From: Acidobacteriota bacterium
GTDB taxonomy: Bacteria > Acidobacteriota > Terriglobia > Acidiferrales > UBA7541
Direction of reading: 5' to 3'
Length of the DNA stretch: 64,000 nucleotides
Assembly: GCA_013289585.1 (NCBI GenBank)
Contig: JABCZR010000001.1
Location: 1 to 64,000, forward strand
A model generated the notes under the pieces. The model did no database searches. It saw only the letters and a program-made list of their open reading frames with translations, and was not told the origin of the DNA. Shown in pieces: positions 9,694 through 18,652 of the stretch (position 1 is its first letter; the number at the start of each line of letters is the position of its first letter). The position numbers and the translations under genes were made by a program.

Positions 9694-10038
9694 TTAGTCA
9701 GCTTCCACTGCCGCCTTCAGCCGGCCAAGGGCATCGTCCCACTGCTTGGAGATCAGGTCGAGATGGCGGCGCGCCTCTCTGAGGCGCCGCCTGTCCAATC
9801 TCCAAATGCGTTCGCGCCCGCGCCGCGTGCTGTGGACAAGCCCTGCGTCCTCCATAACGCGCAGGTGTTTCGTAATTGCTTGACGAGTGACTCTAGATCC
9901 TGCCGTGAGCCTGCTAATGGACATGGGGCCGCCATCACAGAGACGGGAAACAAGCCGTAACCGGGTGCCGTCACCCAGCGCCGCAAAAAGGTGCGCAGAG
10001 CTCTTCGGCTCTGCCATCACCCTTGAGCTACCGCGCAT
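9694..10038 (-). CDS. ArsR-family winged-helix transcription regulator
   Basis: DNA-binding repressor of 114 aa. The ArsR/SmtB winged helix spans about residues 15-95: LFAALGDGTRLRLVSRL, then the recognition region SRVTRQAITKHLRVMEDAGLV and the wing RRGRERIWRLD. No metal-binding Cys pair is evident, as in the SRPBCC-associated subgroup. The ATG at 10038 overlaps the end of the upstream SRPBCC gene by 11 nt and has GAGGAG 10 nt before it; ATG 10017 is an alternative. It probably autoregulates the SRPBCC-arsR operon through the two GCAACC-N4-GGTTGC palindromes upstream (inference). Confidence 0.88.
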   Translation of the reverse strand: MRGSSRVMAEPKSSAHLFAALGDGTRLRLVSRLCDGGPMSISRLTAGSRVTRQAITKHLRVMEDAGLVHSTRRGRERIWRLDRRRLREARRHLDLISKQWDDALGRLKAAVEAD

Positions 10039-10516
10039 CGGCGAGGTACTCCTCGAGGACTTTCACCATCATGCTCCACCCTCCCTCGTTCGCCGTGAAC
10101 GCATTCGCTCGGCGCGCGAGCGGGATTTGATCGAAGCCGGACTCAGTGACCGTAAGCAGGACGCCATCCGCTGCTTGCTCCAGCGCAAAAGCGACCAGGG
10201 TCGTCGGCTCCGCGGAGTAGTCCATGTCGCGATCCACGGCGTGAGGATGCCATCGGAAGGAGAACAGCCGCTCTGGTTCCATCTGCTCGATGGTGATTTC
10301 GAAGACCATGCCTTCGTGCGACTTCTGGGCTTTGGCGACTTCCGCGTTGACCTTCGTGGGCGAGAGCACCCCGCGCATGACGGCACCGGGCGTGAACGGC
10401 CCTTCGAACTTCATGCCGAACCAGTTCCCAAACTCTTTGGAGTCCGCCAGGGCGCGCCAGACGCGTTTTTTCGGGGCGCGCAAGAGAATCTTCTTTTCGA
10501 TGCGATCCGTGTCCAT
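10028..10516 (-). CDS. SRPBCC (AHSA1-like) domain protein
   Basis: About 162 aa. It has the START-like/AHSA1 fold signature: an early IEKKILLRAPKKRVWRALAD strand-helix, then FGNWFGMKFEGPFTPG, and a C-terminal helix ANEGGWSMMVKVLEEYL. Such proteins bind hydrophobic ligands in a helix-grip cavity; no enzymatic role can be read here. The ATG at 10516 has AGGAGG 6 nt upstream, and that ribosome site lies inside a palindrome that is probably the ArsR operator. It is the first gene of a two-gene operon with the overlapping ArsR gene, a common pairing. The ligand is unknown. Confidence 0.88.
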   Translation of the reverse strand: MDTDRIEKKILLRAPKKRVWRALADSKEFGNWFGMKFEGPFTPGAVMRGVLSPTKVNAEVAKAQKSHEGMVFEITIEQMEPERLFSFRWHPHAVDRDMDYSAEPTTLVAFALEQAADGVLLTVTESGFDQIPLARRANAFTANEGGWSMMVKVLEEYLADAR

Positions 10517-10518
10517 AG

Positions 10519-10534
10519 GCAACCTCCTGGTTGC
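10519..10534. promoter_or_regulatory. ArsR operator candidate, copy 1 (GCAACC-N4-GGTTGC)
   Basis: Perfect inverted repeat GCAACC-TCCT-GGTTGC immediately upstream of the SRPBCC start, overlapping its ribosome-binding site. A second copy with the same arms lies 41 bp away, centre to centre. Binding by the adjacent ArsR protein is inferred. Confidence 0.65.
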
Positions 10535-10559: not shown

Positions 10560-10575
10560 GCAACCCTTGGGTTGC
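10560..10575. promoter_or_regulatory. ArsR operator candidate, copy 2
   Basis: Inverted repeat with the arms GCAACC and GGTTGC and core CTTG (7-bp arms if extended by one base). It is followed directly by GTTGC-GCAAC. The centre is 41 bp from copy 1, about four helical turns, so both would face the same side of DNA. Confidence 0.65.
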
Positions 10576-10694
10576 GCAACAAGCGCCGGCGGCCAATTGC
10601 GTGGCGGCGCCAGCGAGCGTATATTGGCGGGCGGCCCGGAAATGGAAAAAGAAATTCCGCCGAGCTTCACGGATGGCGTTGCCGAGGAGGAACT

Positions 10695-12449
10695 GTGCTG
10701 AGAGTGCTGGCGTGCATGGCGGGGTTGTTGTTGCTGGTGGCGATGCCGATGACGGCGCAGGCGCCGGGAGTTTCCGAAATGTACGCGCAGATCCGCGCGG
10801 AAGAGACGAACAACTCCAAGATCATGTGGATTATTCACGAGGTGGCGGACGTGCATGGGCCGCGCGTGACCGGGACGCCGAATTTGAAGGCCGCCGACGA
10901 CTGGGCGGTGAAGACCATGGCGTCGTGGGGACTGACGAACACGCACCTGGAGCCGTGGACTTTTCAGCCACCGAGCGCAGCAACGCCCGTGCCCGGATGG
11001 GAAAACATGGAATTACAGGCGGACGCCGTTGCGCCGTTCCACGGGCAGCTTATGGTGAAGCCGCTGGCTTGGACTCCGAGCACAAAGGGAGTGGTGACCG
11101 GGCAAGTGGTTCTGGTCGAGCCGCCGGGATTGGCGCCTCCCACGGGTGGGGGATTCAACTTCTTTGGAGCCGCGCCGCCACCGCCGGAACCGAAATGGGC
11201 AGCACCGCCGATGCCGGCGGCAGCAAAGCCAGCGGAGCCAAAGCAGCCCATGCAGGCGGAGCTCGATGCGTATCTGAATTCCGTGAAAGACAAAGTGCGC
11301 GGAGCGATCGTGTTCGTTGGCAAGCACATAGAAGTCGCCGAGGACATGCACCCCGCGCCGATGCGGCGGCCCGAGGAGGAATGGACGTCGCGATTTGATC
11401 CCAAGAATCCGCGCCCGTTCCGATTCCCGGAGCAGCCGAAGCTTCCAGAGGGGCAACTGACGCGTGCGGAAGTTTCGCGGCAGGTAGACCAGTTTCTGGT
11501 GGATAACGGGGCGCTGGTGCGCGTAAATGACGCGGGACGCACGCACGGGGTGATCATCGCGCAACAGAATGGCACTTACGACTGGGTGAGAGCTGTGCCG
11601 ACGCTGGTGATGCGCAATGAGGACTACGGGCGGATTTCGCGGATTATCGGTGACGGGACCGCGGTAACTCTGCGCATCAACATCCAGAACAAGGAATATC
11701 CCGAAGGCACGACGGTTTACAACGCGATTGGAGAGATTCCGGGCGGCGACAAGAAGGATGAAGTCGTGATGCTCGGCGGGCACTATGATTCGTGGCACGA
11801 CGCGACGGGCGCCACGGACAATGGCATTGGTTCGGCCATGATGCTGGAGGCGGTGCGGATTCTGGCGGCGCTGCACGTGAAGCCTCGGCGCACGATTCGA
11901 ATCGCACTCTGGAGCGGAGAAGAAGAGGGGCTGCTTGGGTCACTGGCATACGTGCAGCAGCATTTTGGAACATTTGAAAATCAAAAGCCGGAGTATGCGA
12001 AGCTGGACGCGTATTTCAATATTGATTCGGGCACGGGGAAACCGCGCGGCGCGGGCGTATTTGGGCCGGCCGGCGCAGCCGAGATGGTGAACGAAGCAAT
12101 GAAGCCATTTGCGGAGTGGGGCTTCATGGGCACGCTGCCCTCGGACAGCCGACGAACGGGCGGGACAGACAGCACATCGTTCAACAATGCGGGATTGCCG
12201 GGGATCGGCTTGACGCAAGATCCGTTTGACTATGGATCGTACACACACCACACGAATCTCGATACCTACGAACGCATTTATGAAGAAGACGTGAGAGAAG
12301 GCGCGGTGGAGATCGCTTCGGCGGTGTACGCGCTGGCCATGGCCGATCAAATGGTGCCGCGCTTCAAGGATGCCGAGATGCCCAAGCCCGCGCCAGAACC
12401 CGGCCCGGGATCGCAAGCGACACAAGTACGGCACGTGCCTGCGAATTGA
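10695..12449 (+). CDS. Secreted M28 family zinc aminopeptidase
   Basis: About 584 aa. The GTG at 10695 follows GAGGAGG and yields a signal peptide (RVLACMAGLLLLVAMPMTAQA). A protease-associated-like region spans roughly residues 100-300, with a Pro/Ala-rich insertion. The M28 core holds the zinc ligands: His and Asp in GGHYDSWHDATGATDNG, the Glu pair in WSGEEEGLLGS, Asp in YFNIDSGTG and His in THHTNLDTYE. Such enzymes remove N-terminal residues from peptides in the periplasm or outside. It is divergent from the SRPBCC/arsR operon and may share its operator region. Substrate specificity cannot be deduced. Confidence 0.88.
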   Translation: MLRVLACMAGLLLLVAMPMTAQAPGVSEMYAQIRAEETNNSKIMWIIHEVADVHGPRVTGTPNLKAADDWAVKTMASWGLTNTHLEPWTFQPPSAATPVPGWENMELQADAVAPFHGQLMVKPLAWTPSTKGVVTGQVVLVEPPGLAPPTGGGFNFFGAAPPPPEPKWAAPPMPAAAKPAEPKQPMQAELDAYLNSVKDKVRGAIVFVGKHIEVAEDMHPAPMRRPEEEWTSRFDPKNPRPFRFPEQPKLPEGQLTRAEVSRQVDQFLVDNGALVRVNDAGRTHGVIIAQQNGTYDWVRAVPTLVMRNEDYGRISRIIGDGTAVTLRINIQNKEYPEGTTVYNAIGEIPGGDKKDEVVMLGGHYDSWHDATGATDNGIGSAMMLEAVRILAALHVKPRRTIRIALWSGEEEGLLGSLAYVQQHFGTFENQKPEYAKLDAYFNIDSGTGKPRGAGVFGPAGAAEMVNEAMKPFAEWGFMGTLPSDSRRTGGTDSTSFNNAGLPGIGLTQDPFDYGSYTHHTNLDTYERIYEEDVREGAVEIASAVYALAMADQMVPRFKDAEMPKPAPEPGPGSQATQVRHVPAN

Positions 12450-12637: not shown

Positions 12638-14023
12638 TTAAGTCTGACCCTCCGCCAACGGAAGCCACACTTGAAAGCGTGTGTCGCCGGGTTTCGAGCT
12701 GACTTGAATATTTCCGCGGTGCTTCTTGACGATACGCTGAACGGTGTCGAGGCCCAGGCCGGTTCCTTCGCCAACTCCCTTGGTGGTGAAGAAAGGTTCG
12801 AAGATGTGGGAGCGCACGTCGGGAGAAATTCCGGGGCCGTTATCGGCGATTTCAACCACGACGCAGTTATCGTCGCGATAGGTTCGGACCCGAATCTTGC
12901 CTTCGCCACCCATGGCGTCAATCGCGTTGTCGATGAGGTTCGTCCATACCTGGTTGAGCTCGCTGCCGAAGGAATTGACGAGAAGGGGAATTTTTTGGTA
13001 ATCGCGTTCGACGACGACTCCGTGCTTGAGCTTGTGATTCAAAATGGTAAGCGTGGTTTCCAGACTTTTGACGATGTCGACGTTTTGCAGCGGCGTCTGA
13101 TCCATGTATGTGTATTCCTTGATCGCACCGACCAGATCAGATATGCGGGACGTGCCGCTTTCGATTTCGTCGAGAAGGGTTGCAACTTCCACCGAGGCGG
13201 CGATCCTTACCAGGGCCGCCCTGGCGGTGTCTGGGTCGAGAATGGCAAATAAGGATTCAAGCGCTTCCGGTTGGACGTTTTTGCGGGCCAAGTCTGCCGC
13301 CATTTGCCACAAGTCATTCTGGCCATGACTGCGCAACAAGGAGTCAATCTGCTCTTCGAGGTCGCTGATGGTGAGCGCATCGGGCGGCACTTCGTTGCTT
13401 TGGACAAATGCAGTTTCCAGCTTCTCGATTTCTGCTTTCTGTTCGGGCGAGAGGTCACGGCTTCCCAAAGCGTGGCTGGCGTCACGGATTTTCTTCAGTA
13501 CATCGCGCAATTGGCTGGTGGCGCGCTTGGCGGCGGAGGCTGGATTATTGAGCTCGTGCGCGAGCCCCGCCGAAAGTTTTCCCAAGGAAGCCAACCTGTC
13601 ACGCTGCTGCTCTCTTCGAGTGGTTTCCCGAATTCGGTCGGACATTAAGCCAACGAGACGCTGAGCCAACTCCGGCATCTTCTGAACAAGATCGGGGAAC
13701 AGGGACGCTGGATAGCGCAGGACTCGGGAGTCGGTGATGGCTCTAGCGCCTACGCTAAACTGTTTCATTCTCGAAAAAGGCAGAACTCCGGTCACGTCTC
13801 CCGGCTTCATAGGAATGACGACGGCTTCGCCGCCCAGTTCGCCTCGCGCTTGCATTTGTCCTTCGAGAACAACGTACATGGCGTCCGCAGGCTCGTCCTG
13901 GCGAAAAGCCATGTCGCCGGCGGTGATATTCATTTCTTTGGCCTGGCCAATGAACCAGGCTATCTGGTCGTCGGGCAACCCGGAGAAGACCGGCACACGA
14001 AGCAGCTCAGATTTCTCGACCAT
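12638..14023 (-). CDS. Sensor histidine kinase with N-terminal cyclic-nucleotide-binding-like domain
   Basis: Cytoplasmic kinase of 461 aa with no membrane segment. Residues about 8-125 form a cNMP-binding/CRP-like beta barrel ([28 protein letters not shown]). A coiled helix follows, then the HisKA box [13 protein letters not shown] with phospho-acceptor His156. The HATPase domain shows the N box [11 protein letters not shown]1 [10 protein letters not shown] and G2 [11 protein letters not shown]. Its ATG directly abuts the stop of the upstream response-regulator/reductase fusion (0 nt gap), so the two are almost certainly partners. The signal sensed is unknown; redox or nucleotide input is possible. 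Confidence 0.9.
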
Positions 14024-15706
14024 TTAGACCTTGCTCAAATATTGATGGATGAATTGAACAGCGACCGACCCTTCACCGACACCGGATGCCACCCTCTTCA
14101 CCGAACCGTGGCGCACGTCACCTACCGCAAAGAGCCCTGGAACATTGGTCTCGAGCAGAAAGGGATCCCGATCAAGCATCCAGCCCTTCGGGCGCTGGCC
14201 ATCTCGCAGGAGATCCGGACCCGTCAAGACGAACCCGTGCGCATCACGCTCGACGACATCAGCCAACCAGTCTGTGCGCGGGGACGCTCCAATAAAAATG
14301 AACATGGCGCTCGCCGGTACGCGCTCCGTCTTGTTGGTATCCGAACAAAGAAATGAGATTTCCTCGAGGTGAGTTTCGCCGTGTACTTCGGCTATGCTCG
14401 CATTCGCCCACAACTGGATGTTTGGCATCTCCTTGATTTGGTCGATCAGGTACTGAGACATGGTGCTCGAAAGAGATTTGCCCCGCACAACAATGACGAC
14501 GCGCTCAGCGTACTTCGCGAAATTCATCGCTGCTTGCCCCGCGGAATTCGCACCCCCGATCACATAAACGACCTCGCCCTTGCAGGACAACGCTTCCGTT
14601 GCGCCTCCGCCGTAGTAGACGCCCGCCCCTTGCAACCGATCGATCCCAGGGGCTTCAAGACGCCGCCACTGCACGCCGGTGGCAATCATCAATGCATGGC
14701 AGGAAATCTCATTCCCATCGGCCAGCTTGATTATGCGATAGGGTCCTTCGATGCGCACGCCGAGAGCTTCCTGAGGAGAGAGAATTTCCACGCCAAAGCG
14801 CTGGGCTTGCACAACAGCACGACGGGCCAGGTCGCCACCACTGAGCCCCATCGGAAATCCCAGATAGTTTTCAATGCGCGAACTCATGCCCGCCTGCCCG
14901 CCAGGAGCTTCACGCTCAATCATCACGGTGTGCAATCCCTCGGACGCCCCATAGACGGCTGCGGCCAGCCCAGCAGGTCCGCCGCCCACGATCGCTAAAT
15001 CGTAAAAATTAGTTTGCGCGCGAGTTTTCAAACCGACTCGTTGCGCCACTTGCGAAGGTATGCTCTCGAGAAGTTTCGTACCATCGGGGAAAAGAACGAT
15101 CGGCAAACTCGAGGCCTCCGGTCCCAACACTTCCAAGAGGCGCTTCGTCTCCGGATCATTGGCGGAAAGTTCGACGTCTGTCCACTGATAAGGAACGCGA
15201 TTGCGTGCGAGAAAGTCGCGTAATTCATATGACTTGGCCGACCAACGGGTGCCTAGCACGCGGATACCTTGAAATTTCGGCCGGTAAGAAGCTTGCCAAT
15301 CATCGAGCAGATCATCCAATTGCGGGTAAAGGTGCTCGCTGGGAGGATCCCACGGCTTCAAGAAGAAGTAGTTGATGTTGGCCTGATTGATCGCGCTGAT
15401 TGCAGCATTTGTATCGGCGTAAGCGGTAAGCAGAGCCCGCTTCGCCTCCGGGAAGATGTGCATCGCTTCCTGCAGAAAAGCGACGCCATCCATATGAGGC
15501 ATTCGTTGATCGGCGATCAGCAACGCCACGCTATCATTTCGCAGTTTCAGCTGCTTCAGAAGCGTAAGCGCTGCTTCAGGTGAATCACTTCCAATCACAC
15601 GGAATTCAGCGCCGTACTTTGTACGCAGGTCGCGCTCAATCGCCCTCAGGACATCGGAGTCGTCATCGACACTAAGCAGAATTGGTTTCGCCATGTTCGG
15701 TCCCAT
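14024..15706 (-). CDS. Response regulator / glutaredoxin-like / thioredoxin-reductase-like flavoprotein fusion
   Basis: 560 aa in three parts. Residues 5-125 are a receiver domain: acidic pocket DDD 14-16, phospho-acceptor Asp66 in ADQRMP, conserved Lys in FLKPW. Residues about 147-225 resemble a glutaredoxin fold (IRVLGTRWSAKSYELRDF, LPIVLFPDGTKL), but the CxxC is replaced by WSAKS. Residues 234-560 are a TrxR-like FAD/NAD(P)H oxidoreductase with GGGPAGLAAA, GGANSAGQAA and LFAVGDVRHGSVKR. The CxxC of true thioredoxin reductase is also missing (YYGGGATEALSC, one Cys at 375). No DNA-binding output domain exists, so the output appears enzymatic. It forms an operon with the downstream kinase. 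Similar fusions exist in databases, but I know of no defined function. Confidence 0.88.
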   Translation of the reverse strand: MGPNMAKPILLSVDDDSDVLRAIERDLRTKYGAEFRVIGSDSPEAALTLLKQLKLRNDSVALLIADQRMPHMDGVAFLQEAMHIFPEAKRALLTAYADTNAAISAINQANINYFFLKPWDPPSEHLYPQLDDLLDDWQASYRPKFQGIRVLGTRWSAKSYELRDFLARNRVPYQWTDVELSANDPETKRLLEVLGPEASSLPIVLFPDGTKLLESIPSQVAQRVGLKTRAQTNFYDLAIVGGGPAGLAAAVYGASEGLHTVMIEREAPGGQAGMSSRIENYLGFPMGLSGGDLARRAVVQAQRFGVEILSPQEALGVRIEGPYRIIKLADGNEISCHALMIATGVQWRRLEAPGIDRLQGAGVYYGGGATEALSCKGEVVYVIGGANSAGQAAMNFAKYAERVVIVVRGKSLSSTMSQYLIDQIKEMPNIQLWANASIAEVHGETHLEEISFLCSDTNKTERVPASAMFIFIGASPRTDWLADVVERDAHGFVLTGPDLLRDGQRPKGWMLDRDPFLLETNVPGLFAVGDVRHGSVKRVASGVGEGSVAVQFIHQYLSKV

Positions 15707-16092
15707 TTATGATGCATTAGCAGTATTCAACTTCTGGGCCACTTCAACAAGTAGGGTGACCAAATGTCCCGGCGGGTTCGGTCAAGCCGCGGAGGCCACG
15801 GATGAAGCGTTTCTCCTTTCCATTCGATGCGTGATGAGGCCGCTTGGCACATACCTTAGGCGCTCGAATCGAGCTTACCGGAACAACAGTACCTGCCGAT
15901 CCCATAGCGACTTCACATGGCTGTTGGCCTGTCATTTATTACAGTAGCAACCGGTGCGCGACAGTGAGAGCATCAGACTGAGCCAGCGGTCGTGCGTATG
16001 CGCAAGAGATTTGTTTTGTTGCAAGTAGCCAATCCGTCAGAGCGAAAGTTTGTCAGCTTTTCCGGCAACGCTGCTTGAATGGAGATAAGAAA
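15707..16092. other. Intergenic region with no recognised gene
   Basis: 386 bp between the divergent response-regulator fusion and DUF3300 genes. It presumably holds both promoters. Short open frames here do not resemble known proteins, and no strong palindrome or RNA structure was seen. Confidence 0.5.
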
Positions 16093-17493
16093 ATGATCAG
16101 GACCTTCGCGAAGCAGCTTCTGTCAACCACGCTATCCTTCCTCCTGGTAATGGGAGCTCTACCGTTGGGCGTTGGAGCTCAATCGGGTTCAGCGGGCTAT
16201 TCAGGACAAGGCGCCCCGCTTACGGCAGATGAGTTGCAACAACTCGTGGCGCCCATCGCGCTGTACCCGGACTCCCTGGTGGCGCAGATTCTAGGAGCTT
16301 CGACCTTCCCAGACCAGCTTGCATCTGCTGCCAGCTGGCTTCAGCAAAACAGCTCTCTCACAGGTACGACTCTAATGCAGGCCGTCGATGCGCAGCCGTG
16401 GGATCCCAGTGTGAAGGCGCTCACACAATTCCCTTCTGTGCTCGGCAACTTGGCGCAGAACCTCAGTTGGACCTCCGCGCTGGGAGAGGCGTATCACGTC
16501 CAGACCGCCGACGTCATGTTAGCCGTCCAGGTTTTGCGTGCGAAAGCACTAGCTGCCGGCAATCTGAAATCAGGCTCGCAGATTGTTGTTTCGCAACAGT
16601 CACCGCAGACCATCGTAATTCAGCCTGCGAATCCGCAGGTCGTGTATGTACCCGTGTACAACCCCGCGGTGGTTTACGGCTACCCTTATGTGACTCCCGG
16701 ATACAGCAATACAGCCATTGTGGCCACCGGCATGGTTGCATTTGGAGTTGGCGTCGCGGTAGGCGCGATGATGAGCGGCGGGTGTTGCAGTTGGGGATAT
16801 AGCAGTTGGAACTGCGGCTGGCATGGCACCACTGCGGTTGTTTATAACGGTGGGGCGTACTACGGAAACAACGCCTGGCACGGCGGCTATTACGGCTCCA
16901 GTGGCTCTGCGTATGGTCCCAACGGCTCCGCGCACTATAGTAACGGCTACAACCCGTCCACCGGCACTTACGCGCGTGGGGGTACGGTCTCAAACGGTTA
17001 CGGCAGTCAAAGCGCAGCTCAAGCTTACAACCCAAAAACCGGTGCGTACGGTGCGACGGAGCAAGGTTCCAATGCCAACGGGAGCTGGGGCAGCTCAACG
17101 GCTTCGAAAAACGGCACCACCGTAAACAGCCAACATCAAACGAACGCTAACGGAACCACAGGCTCGATGGAAAGCTCGAACGGTGCCAAGGCTTATGGCG
17201 CGTCGGGCAAGAACGGCAACAGCGCCGCTGTGGGCGAAACCGCAAATGGCAACAAGTATGCGACGGCTGACGGCAAAACCTACAGCAACACCGGCAGCGG
17301 TTGGGACCAGAAGAGCGGAAGTTCGAACACGTCCAGTTACAACAAATCTAATTCTGGCGGCTGGGGCGGCCAGGAAAAGAGCGGCGGCTCGTCAGCCATG
17401 AACAGCGGAGGCGGCGGCTGGAATTCCAGGTCTGCCAGTGCTCGTGGCTCGTCGAGCATGGGACGCGGCGGTGGCTGGGGTGGTCGCAGGTGA
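16093..17493 (+). CDS. DUF3300 domain secreted protein with low-complexity Gly/Ser/Asn tail
   Basis: About 466 aa. The ATG at 16093 has GGAG 8 nt upstream. A signal peptide (residues 1-30, ending VGAQ) precedes a DUF3300 domain: LTADELQQLVAPIALYPDSL, ASTFPDQLASAASWL, QPWDPSVKALTQFPSVL, and the closing QVVYVPVYNPAVVYG. A short hydrophobic stretch (VATGMVAFGVGVAVGAMM) follows. The last 240 residues are rich in Gly, Ser, Asn, Tyr and Trp and end in GGGWGGRR. It is likely exported and envelope-associated; no function is known. The DUF2950 gene 85 nt downstream is a common partner. Confidence 0.88.
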   Translation: MIRTFAKQLLSTTLSFLLVMGALPLGVGAQSGSAGYSGQGAPLTADELQQLVAPIALYPDSLVAQILGASTFPDQLASAASWLQQNSSLTGTTLMQAVDAQPWDPSVKALTQFPSVLGNLAQNLSWTSALGEAYHVQTADVMLAVQVLRAKALAAGNLKSGSQIVVSQQSPQTIVIQPANPQVVYVPVYNPAVVYGYPYVTPGYSNTAIVATGMVAFGVGVAVGAMMSGGCCSWGYSSWNCGWHGTTAVVYNGGAYYGNNAWHGGYYGSSGSAYGPNGSAHYSNGYNPSTGTYARGGTVSNGYGSQSAAQAYNPKTGAYGATEQGSNANGSWGSSTASKNGTTVNSQHQTNANGTTGSMESSNGAKAYGASGKNGNSAAVGETANGNKYATADGKTYSNTGSGWDQKSGSSNTSSYNKSNSGGWGGQEKSGGSSAMNSGGGGWNSRSASARGSSSMGRGGGWGGRR

Positions 17494-18577: not shown

Positions 18578-18652
18578 TGGCTCCCCGGGCTAGATTCGAA
18601 CTAGCAACCCTTCGGTTAACAGCCGAATGCTCTACCATTGAGCTACCGGGGA
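18578..18652 (-). tRNA. tRNA-Asn (GTT)
   Basis: A 75-nt cloverleaf with CCA encoded. The acceptor arm TCCCCGG pairs with CCGGGGA, the D arm is GCTC...GAGC, the anticodon loop is CTGTTAACC with anticodon GTT, and the T arm is GCTAG-TTCGAAT-CTAGC. The discriminator is G followed by CCA (plus-strand TGG at 18578). All stems pair perfectly. Confidence 0.96.

Follow-up and report, generated by a model that had tools for sequence, protein, structure and literature searches.

We analysed a 64 kb stretch of the Acidobacteriota bacterium contig JABCZR010000001.1 (positions 1–64,000; this whole stretch is referred to as the window) and, within it, a two-gene operon at 12638–15706 that encodes a flavoprotein, P0001, and a histidine kinase, P0002. 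By sequence, the operon joins an intact receiver and a soluble kinase that travels with it to a glutaredoxin-like and thioredoxin reductase-like (Grx–TrxR) module that lacks the cysteine pairs of both parts and has new invariant residues. Most response-regulator outputs act by binding DNA, by producing second messengers or through protein binding. Here the comparisons suggest a two-component system in which the response-regulator output would be a flavin oxidoreductase gated by phosphorylation, a reading that we give about an even chance of being correct. The genes and the receiver domain are

14024..15706, (-) strand: P0001, receiver–Grx-like–TrxR-like flavoprotein, 560 residues (open reading frame; likelier start 15694, M5)
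12638..14023, (-) strand: P0002, soluble histidine kinase, 461 residues (open reading frame; first codon right after the flavoprotein stop)
15341..15694, (-) strand: receiver domain with D14/D15/D16, D66, T94 and K117 (Pfam PF00072)

The TAA stop codon of the flavoprotein gene abuts the ATG of the kinase gene with zero gap, both genes being on the (-) strand, just as the initial annotation of this DNA had described the operon. The flanking long open reading frames (ORFs; 10572–12449 and 16075–17493) lie on the opposite strand. Most homologues of P0001 align only from residue 3–5, so the protein probably starts at M5 (15694) rather than at 15706, in which case 'Asp66' would be residue 62. Pfam places Response_reg at residues 6–116 and Pyr_redox_2 at residues 230–541 of a 555-residue query whose residue 1 is A6 of P0001. 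No DNA-binding family was found in P0001 by Pfam at E ≤ 0.1, in keeping with the earlier claim that there is no DNA-binding output, and among the matches listed (25 of 65) P0001 falls below the NCBIfam cut-off for every model.

The two sites at which a Grx–TrxR relay would carry its disulfides are both replaced in P0001:

15029..15274, (-) strand: glutaredoxin-like (thioredoxin-fold) domain without its cysteines (AlphaFold model, homologue L127)
15230..15244, (-) strand: WSAKS in place of the Grx WCxxC (S156, S159; alignment to WCPDC of L127=L181)
14582..14617, (-) strand: YYGGGATEALSC, the replaced TrxR CATCD site, with Y365 and E371 invariant and a lone C375 that is not (alignment)

The Grx-like domain of P0001 has no Pfam match, and a PDB search gave weak matches (a GST at E = 0.025 and the glutaredoxin Rv3198.1 at E = 0.24). 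The homologue L127 (the same gene as L181; L127:4383–5678, (-) strand) is a 431-residue Grx–TrxR fusion from the acidobacterial genome G015, and its aligned domain matches the mycobacterial glutaredoxin Rv3198.1, the closest solved structure, at E = 9.9e-14. As this counterpart matches Rv3198.1 and residues 148–223 of P0001 show the beta-alpha-beta-alpha order in the AlphaFold model, the Grx-like fold proposed for the response regulator is borne out. In the alignment, WSAKS lies opposite WCPDC, and the YGGGATE stretch lies opposite CATC of L127=L181.

The 193 Grx–TrxR core ORFs in the collected loci gave 164 distinct cores for alignment (identical ones dropped and the window counted once). Of these, 103 have a receiver, 14 have a CRP-like domain (by BLAST) and 47 have another, a short or no detected N-terminus; this last group contains fragments, the canonical TrxR of the same genome as the window (L003) and the homologue L181. 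Both cysteine pairs are absent from all 103 distinct receiver cores, and the only core of the 164 to have both together is the acidobacterial fusion L181. No other core has a full Grx pair (156 and 159); a Cys is found at 159 in 7/103 receiver cores, 6/14 CRP-like cores and L181, and at 156 in L120 and L181. No receiver core (0/103) has a Cys at 156, so the CxxC or CxxS of a glutaredoxin is missing and it is the fold that is supported. The TrxR pair (366 and 370) occurs only in L181 and in L003, the ordinary TrxR. The loss noted initially in a single gene is thus family-wide and old. Local decay or a sequencing error was considered as the cause of the missing cysteines and is ruled out because the loss is family-wide.

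A quick tree of 86 rows, calculated with the CxxC columns removed and rooted on L003, has a branch with a Shimodaira–Hasegawa-like approximate likelihood-ratio (SH-aLRT) support of 99 that parts all 84 Cys-less rows from L181 and the canonical TrxR L003. The receiver label needs one change on this tree, at a branch with a support of just 38, and the root is unsure because L003 is a long branch. Most simply, the alignment and tree suggest that both disulfide sites were lost once, before the receiver and CRP-like branches split. L181, which keeps both pairs at exactly these sites and whose Grx domain matches Rv3198.1 far better than that of P0001, bears out the direction implied by 'lost' in the initial annotation.

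Conservation in the flavin module was counted in a diverse set thinned at 80% identity (39 receiver and 45 other members, with L003 and L181 set aside):

14027..15022, (-) strand: TrxR-like FAD/NAD(P)H module (PF07992, E = 1.3e-33; TrxR structures matched with Z up to 31.5)
14969..14986, (-) strand: FAD motif GGGPAG (residues 241–246; G241, G243 and G246 in 84/84 diverse members)
14540..14557, (-) strand: NAD(P)H motif, which reads GGANSA (A386 in 35/39 diverse receiver members, G in 44/45 others)
14093..14122, (-) strand: FAD motif GDVRHGSVKR (R538 in 84/84, Q in both outgroups)

Together with the FAD-motif glycines, Y365, E371, Q391, R408, Y419 and R538 are invariant in 84/84 members. The Cys-bearing outgroups L003 and L181 have R408 in common with them but carry D371, E391, I419 and Q538. 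E371 lies opposite the Asp of CATCD, with a doubt of one residue from the placement of a gap; we take this Asp to be the active-site acid of E. coli TrxR. In the flavin-reducing (FR) conformation of the Lactococcus TrxR, Asp154, Glu158, Ser155 and Gln285 surround the re-face of the flavin (PMC5387739). By motif position Glu158 would correspond to Q391 and Gln285 to R538, and the pocket thus appears to have been recharged (E to Q and Q to R), from negative plus neutral to neutral plus positive. The invariance and the recharged pocket together argue for a new flavin function and not for decay. The initial annotation held the FAD and NAD(P)H motifs to be intact; this stands for the FAD part, where the glycines are invariant, and holds only in part for the NAD(P)H motifs, which have GGANSA and, in place of HRR, VRG.

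The model of P0001 was made with AlphaFold2 without templates from an alignment of 30 sequences (pLDDT 82.3, pTM 0.68). According to Foldseek, the AhpF entries 4xvg, 4o5q and 1hyu are at ranks 1, 2 and 6 by E-value over 569–596 aligned columns, although the whole-chain TM score to AhpF is low (0.34–0.39). VIA-align superposed the module onto PDB entries 5mh4 (FR by its title) and 1f6m (FR) with 2.8–2.9 Å over 298–306 residues and onto 4up3 with 2.0 Å, as against 7.9 Å (5mjk) and 5.8 Å (5w4c) for entries titled as the flavin-oxidizing (FO) state. These VIA-align rows span mainly residues 231–560 and barely test the receiver and Grx-like parts. The FR state is the one that places NADPH for hydride transfer to FAD (PMC5387739). 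The two-domain FAD/NAD(P)H fold of TrxR is present by these comparisons (Z about 31, 2.0–2.9 Å) and, with the PF07992 match, confirms the TrxR-like domain recognized at the outset.

The receiver is intact, as had been claimed: the phospho-acceptor Asp, acidic pair, Thr and Lys of a response regulator are all present, and D14/D15/D16, D66, T94 and K117 are each conserved in 97–99 of 100 distinct receiver domains, with D66, T94 and K117 each kept in 98. The loci L104 and L125 have divergent receivers without the phospho-acceptor Asp66, and these loci also give no kinase match.

Neighbouring genes were counted at those of the loci L009–L127 in which the sequence extends 1.5 kb or more upstream and 1.8 kb or more downstream of the core, giving 76 receiver rows (74 distinct) and 28 non-receiver rows, in which related loci are not independent counts. 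At 66 of the 74 distinct receiver loci (68/76 rows) a kinase core lies on the same strand no more than 1 kb away, with the pair in the window besides, so that the kinase behaves as the fixed partner that was anticipated. The receiver loci outside the 66 are L054, L063, L070, L072, L075, L080, L104 and L125; some of them have a kinase 1.2–3 kb off, L070 and L072 are broken genes, and L104 and L125 have none. Seven of the 28 non-receiver rows have a kinase, all of them at loci whose receiver genes are broken (L057, L058, L061, L064, L070, L071 and L072), and among the true non-receiver rows the count is 0/21. Two similar kinases lie near one receiver–TrxR gene at L081 (Caballeronia) and at L079 (Deinococcus).

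In P0002 Pfam found cNMP_binding and HATPase_c, with HisKA below the cut-off:

13664..14002, (-) strand: CRP/cNMP-like fold of the kinase (PF00027; PDB CRP/FNR matches from E = 3.2e-9)
13739..13801, (-) strand: degenerate phosphate-binding cassette (pattern search)
13556..13558, (-) strand: phospho-acceptor H156 in AHELNNP (81/81 distinct kinases)
12650..13006, (-) strand: HATPase_c domain (PF02518, E = 3.7e-28)

No strong transmembrane segment was found in the kinase (the maximum 19-residue hydropathy is 1.35), which agrees with its description as soluble. Its model (pLDDT 83.9, pTM 0.51) has long dimerization and histidine phosphotransfer (DHp) helices and a helical insertion some 75 residues long, and the top structural matches are solved histidine kinases. 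The canonical phosphate-binding cassette, GE..R[ST]A, was found in one of the 81 distinct kinases (L075) by a pattern search that may miss borderline cases; P0002 lacks both parts of it. In 58/81 the motif LPxSR[ML] stands in its place and may mark a different ligand. The kinase of L080 has a receiver-like N-terminus instead of the CRP-like domain. The non-receiver flavoproteins are similar, with 40/44 matching PF00027 and the same kind of search finding the canonical cassette in 1/44 (three of the 44 have no N-terminal domain). The 'cNMP-like' domain of the initial annotation is therefore upheld as a fold and is doubtful as a claim about binding, since a single kinase in 81 keeps the phosphate-binding signature; a cyclic nucleotide is probably not the ligand to expect.

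A third gene recurs beside operons of this family. In a profile search, 20/74 distinct receiver loci had a zf-UBP gene on the same strand no more than 2.6 kb away; 12 have it upstream of the receiver gene (e.g. L034, L015 and L023) and 8 downstream of the kinase (e.g. L046, L103, Streptomyces L082, Tsukamurella L083 and Nocardia L086). It is also found in 5/21 true non-receiver rows (L088, L118, L119, L120 and L124). The sole PF02148 match in the genome that contains the window lies directly behind a receiver-less Grx–TrxR paralogue on contig 24, and not at the operon in the window. This paralogue (L088:3732–5510, (-) strand, genome G000) has 49% identity to P0001, and no kinase was found beside it. 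Of 247 Acidobacteriota genomes, the flavoprotein (E ≤ 1e-60) is present in 46, zf-UBP in 55 and the two together in 37 (Fisher p = 5e-22, uncorrected for phylogeny); counted by hand at the genus level, 20 have both, 8 and 13 have one and 100 have neither (p = 8e-10, likewise uncorrected).

In the mechanism that we propose, the kinase would use its CRP-like domain to sense a signal from the cytosol, one that is probably something other than a cyclic nucleotide, and would phosphorylate the receiver. Phosphorylation would shift the seating of the receiver and of the dead Grx domain on the flavin module, and this shift would gate hydride transfer from NAD(P)H to FAD, NADH being at least as likely a donor as NADPH. 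The reduced flavin, having no dithiol, would hand its electrons directly to oxygen, to a quinone or to a protein partner within the system, for which zf-UBP is an example. The receiver-less relatives would act in the same way, controlled directly by the CRP-like domain that they carry. What argues for a phosphorylation-gated oxidoreductase is that the cysteine pairs are absent from every receiver core and kept in one Grx–TrxR homologue, that the flavin-site residues are invariant in a pocket recharged relative to the Cys-bearing outgroups, that the module fits the FR entries better than the FO entries, and that the receiver Asp is conserved and the kinase follows the receiver-bearing genes and not the true receiver-less ones. 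The receiver, kinase and constrained flavin site needed for the phosphorylation-gated oxidase or sensor of the initial annotation are therefore in place; the nucleotide sensing by the kinase that was offered with it is not supported, given the rarity of the canonical signature. We put forward more tentatively, as possible but rather unlikely, a fuller account in which the signal directly gates flavin electron flow, an ancestral Grx–TrxR dithiol relay having lost its two disulfides at a single step, with the re-face of its flavin pocket recharged, receiver or CRP-like control added and zf-UBP serving as reader or acceptor.

Several observations weigh on the other side. The fit to the FR state may reflect the training data of the modelling program; the pTM of the model is 0.68, and its pLDDT is below 50 at 278–281 and 533–537, which are part of the FAD module. 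The third Gly of GxGxxA is Ala in P0001, and most members of the receiver branch read GxAxxA. The HRRxxxR that binds the 2'-phosphate of NADPH is VRG in P0001, and already so in L127, with only R408 kept (84/84). HRRD selects NADPH, and the Desulfovibrio TRi, with TQ/NGK instead, is NAD(P)H-independent (PMC5627308). With HRRD missing, and by analogy with TRi, the donor may be something other than NAD(P)H. No zf-UBP gene was found nearby at 54/74 distinct receiver loci, and no remnant was found in the window, where the zf-UBP protein of the same genome has a best tblastn E of 1.9. A search for recurrent neighbours (ORFs of at least 130 residues that recur in four or more of 37 diverse loci) found none that names an acceptor beyond the flavoprotein, the kinase, their antisense ORFs and zf-UBP; the remaining clusters occur at 5–7 loci each, all inside one acidobacterial family code.

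The alternative that survives best is a redox sensor, in which the flavin would report NAD(P)H/NAD+ or oxygen and, by way of the receiver, alter the kinase/phosphatase balance or zf-UBP, and turnover would be slow and incidental. The lack of a DNA-binding output in P0001, the signal domains on both chain types (a receiver, or a CRP-like domain in most non-receiver members), the invariant flavin site and the small zf-UBP partner would all suit a sensor. An N-terminal receiver, however, usually controls what follows it, and in the CRP-like relatives too the regulatory domain precedes the flavin module in the chain; we regard the sensor as a real possibility but one that is probably wrong. It is improbable that the protein is a non-catalytic scaffold with a structural FAD, in which the old thioredoxin-docking surfaces now serve signal-dependent protein binding. 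Both dithiols have gone together, HRR is gone, the third Gly of the NAD(P)H motif is changed in most receiver members and the Grx-like domain is retained without cysteines, all as a scaffold would allow, but the invariance of the new residues in every diverse member, two of them at the flavin by motif, exceeds what a structural cofactor needs.

Other cysteines are unevenly distributed in the diverse set. C375 is found in 27/39 receiver and 37/45 other members, C336 in 23/39 and 1/45, and C454 in 7/39 and 2/45. A CxxC outside the lost sites occurs in 5/39 receiver and 3/45 other members, and in the former it lies at 336–339 (L196, L197 and L204), 348–351 (L105) or 433–436 (L140). In the sub-branch of L196, L197 and L204, the CxxC in the FAD domain is a possible regained pair. 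Disulfide chemistry that persists through C375 and a substrate thiol, or through a relocated CxxC, is nonetheless improbable, as there is no universal Cys column, C375 is replaced by Y, T, V or F in 12/39 receiver members, and C336, rare outside the receiver members, is modelled within the strand 333–341. No replacement pair common to the whole family was found among the 84 members, and so the conserved pair that the initial annotation named as a refutation did not appear, the closest being the CxxC at 336–339 in three of the 39 receiver members.

P0001 resembles AhpF in having a thioredoxin-fold part N-terminal to the TrxR module, but it has no cysteine pair in either part, and hence no disulfide relay, and it has an added receiver; AhpF has two N-terminal thioredoxin folds compared with the one in P0001. 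The FAD/NAD(P)H fold is like that of the low-Mr thioredoxin reductases in the FR state over about 300 residues, with CATC replaced, E changed to Q, Q to R and HRR to VRG. The Cys-bearing fusion L127=L181 likewise has Grx and TrxR in one chain, with about 37–38% identity and the same C-terminal insertion, but keeps CPDC and CATC and has neither a receiver nor a CRP-like domain. Bacterial ZF-UBP is said to have been assigned by Burroughs, Iyer and Aravind in 2011 to a 'cyclic nucleotide-dependent redox signaling system'. The flavoproteins, CRP-like domains and zf-UBP genes described here match that system, whereas its cyclic-nucleotide label is doubtful here, given how seldom the canonical cassette occurs in the kinases and the non-receiver flavoproteins. 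The architecture is of an already known kind, as was stated initially: receiver–thioredoxin reductase response regulators are in print (Galperin et al., 2018; PMC5847659), and the part of that account available is silent on the cysteine loss, on the zinc finger and kinase genes and on the Grx-like domain. The available part of a review of Deinococcus thiol reductases contains no such response-regulator or cNMP form. No characterised homologue, with ordinary TrxR activity or otherwise, was found in titles and abstract openings, a search in which most subscription journals were not covered. The concerted dithiol loss, the Cys-bearing relative, the recharged pocket and the non-canonical cassette were not met in the literature covered, though they may have been published elsewhere. 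The old, family-wide loss, the Grx–TrxR fusion with both pairs and zf-UBP as a recurrent third partner go beyond the initial annotation.

Genes for a 'Low temperature requirement protein A' lie near the operon at L079, L080 and L084 (Deinococcus and two Nostoc plasmids). In the window itself, a tRNA-Asn (GTT) at 18578–18652 (-) is the only tRNA found, and 9694–10522 (-) appears, by reading of the translation only, to encode a small helix–turn–helix protein and a neighbour resembling AHSA1/SRPBCC.

The family occurs in acidobacteria, cyanobacteria, deinococci, actinobacteria, chloroflexi and proteobacteria. Eleven plasmid records cover at least 80% of P0001; among the matches listed (10 of the 11 plasmids) are Nostoc (2), Deinococcus, Gloeothece, Caballeronia, Paraburkholderia, Streptomyces, Nocardia, Nonomuraea and Tsukamurella. 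The phylum to which the cyanobacterial genome G247 belongs has matches in 13/194 genomes, some of them partial, and that of G252 (locus L076, Pseudoduganella) has them in 45/398, without the receiver part in all the matches listed. Members are currently annotated as 'thioredoxin-disulfide reductase' or 'FAD-dependent oxidoreductase', and the former name is very probably wrong for those without the cysteines. If the phosphorylation-gated reading is true, a flavin module that has no dithiol but has an invariant active site would be a direct signal-to-redox output, and the invariant residues together with the Cys-bearing relative make the question of its function testable with a few purified proteins.

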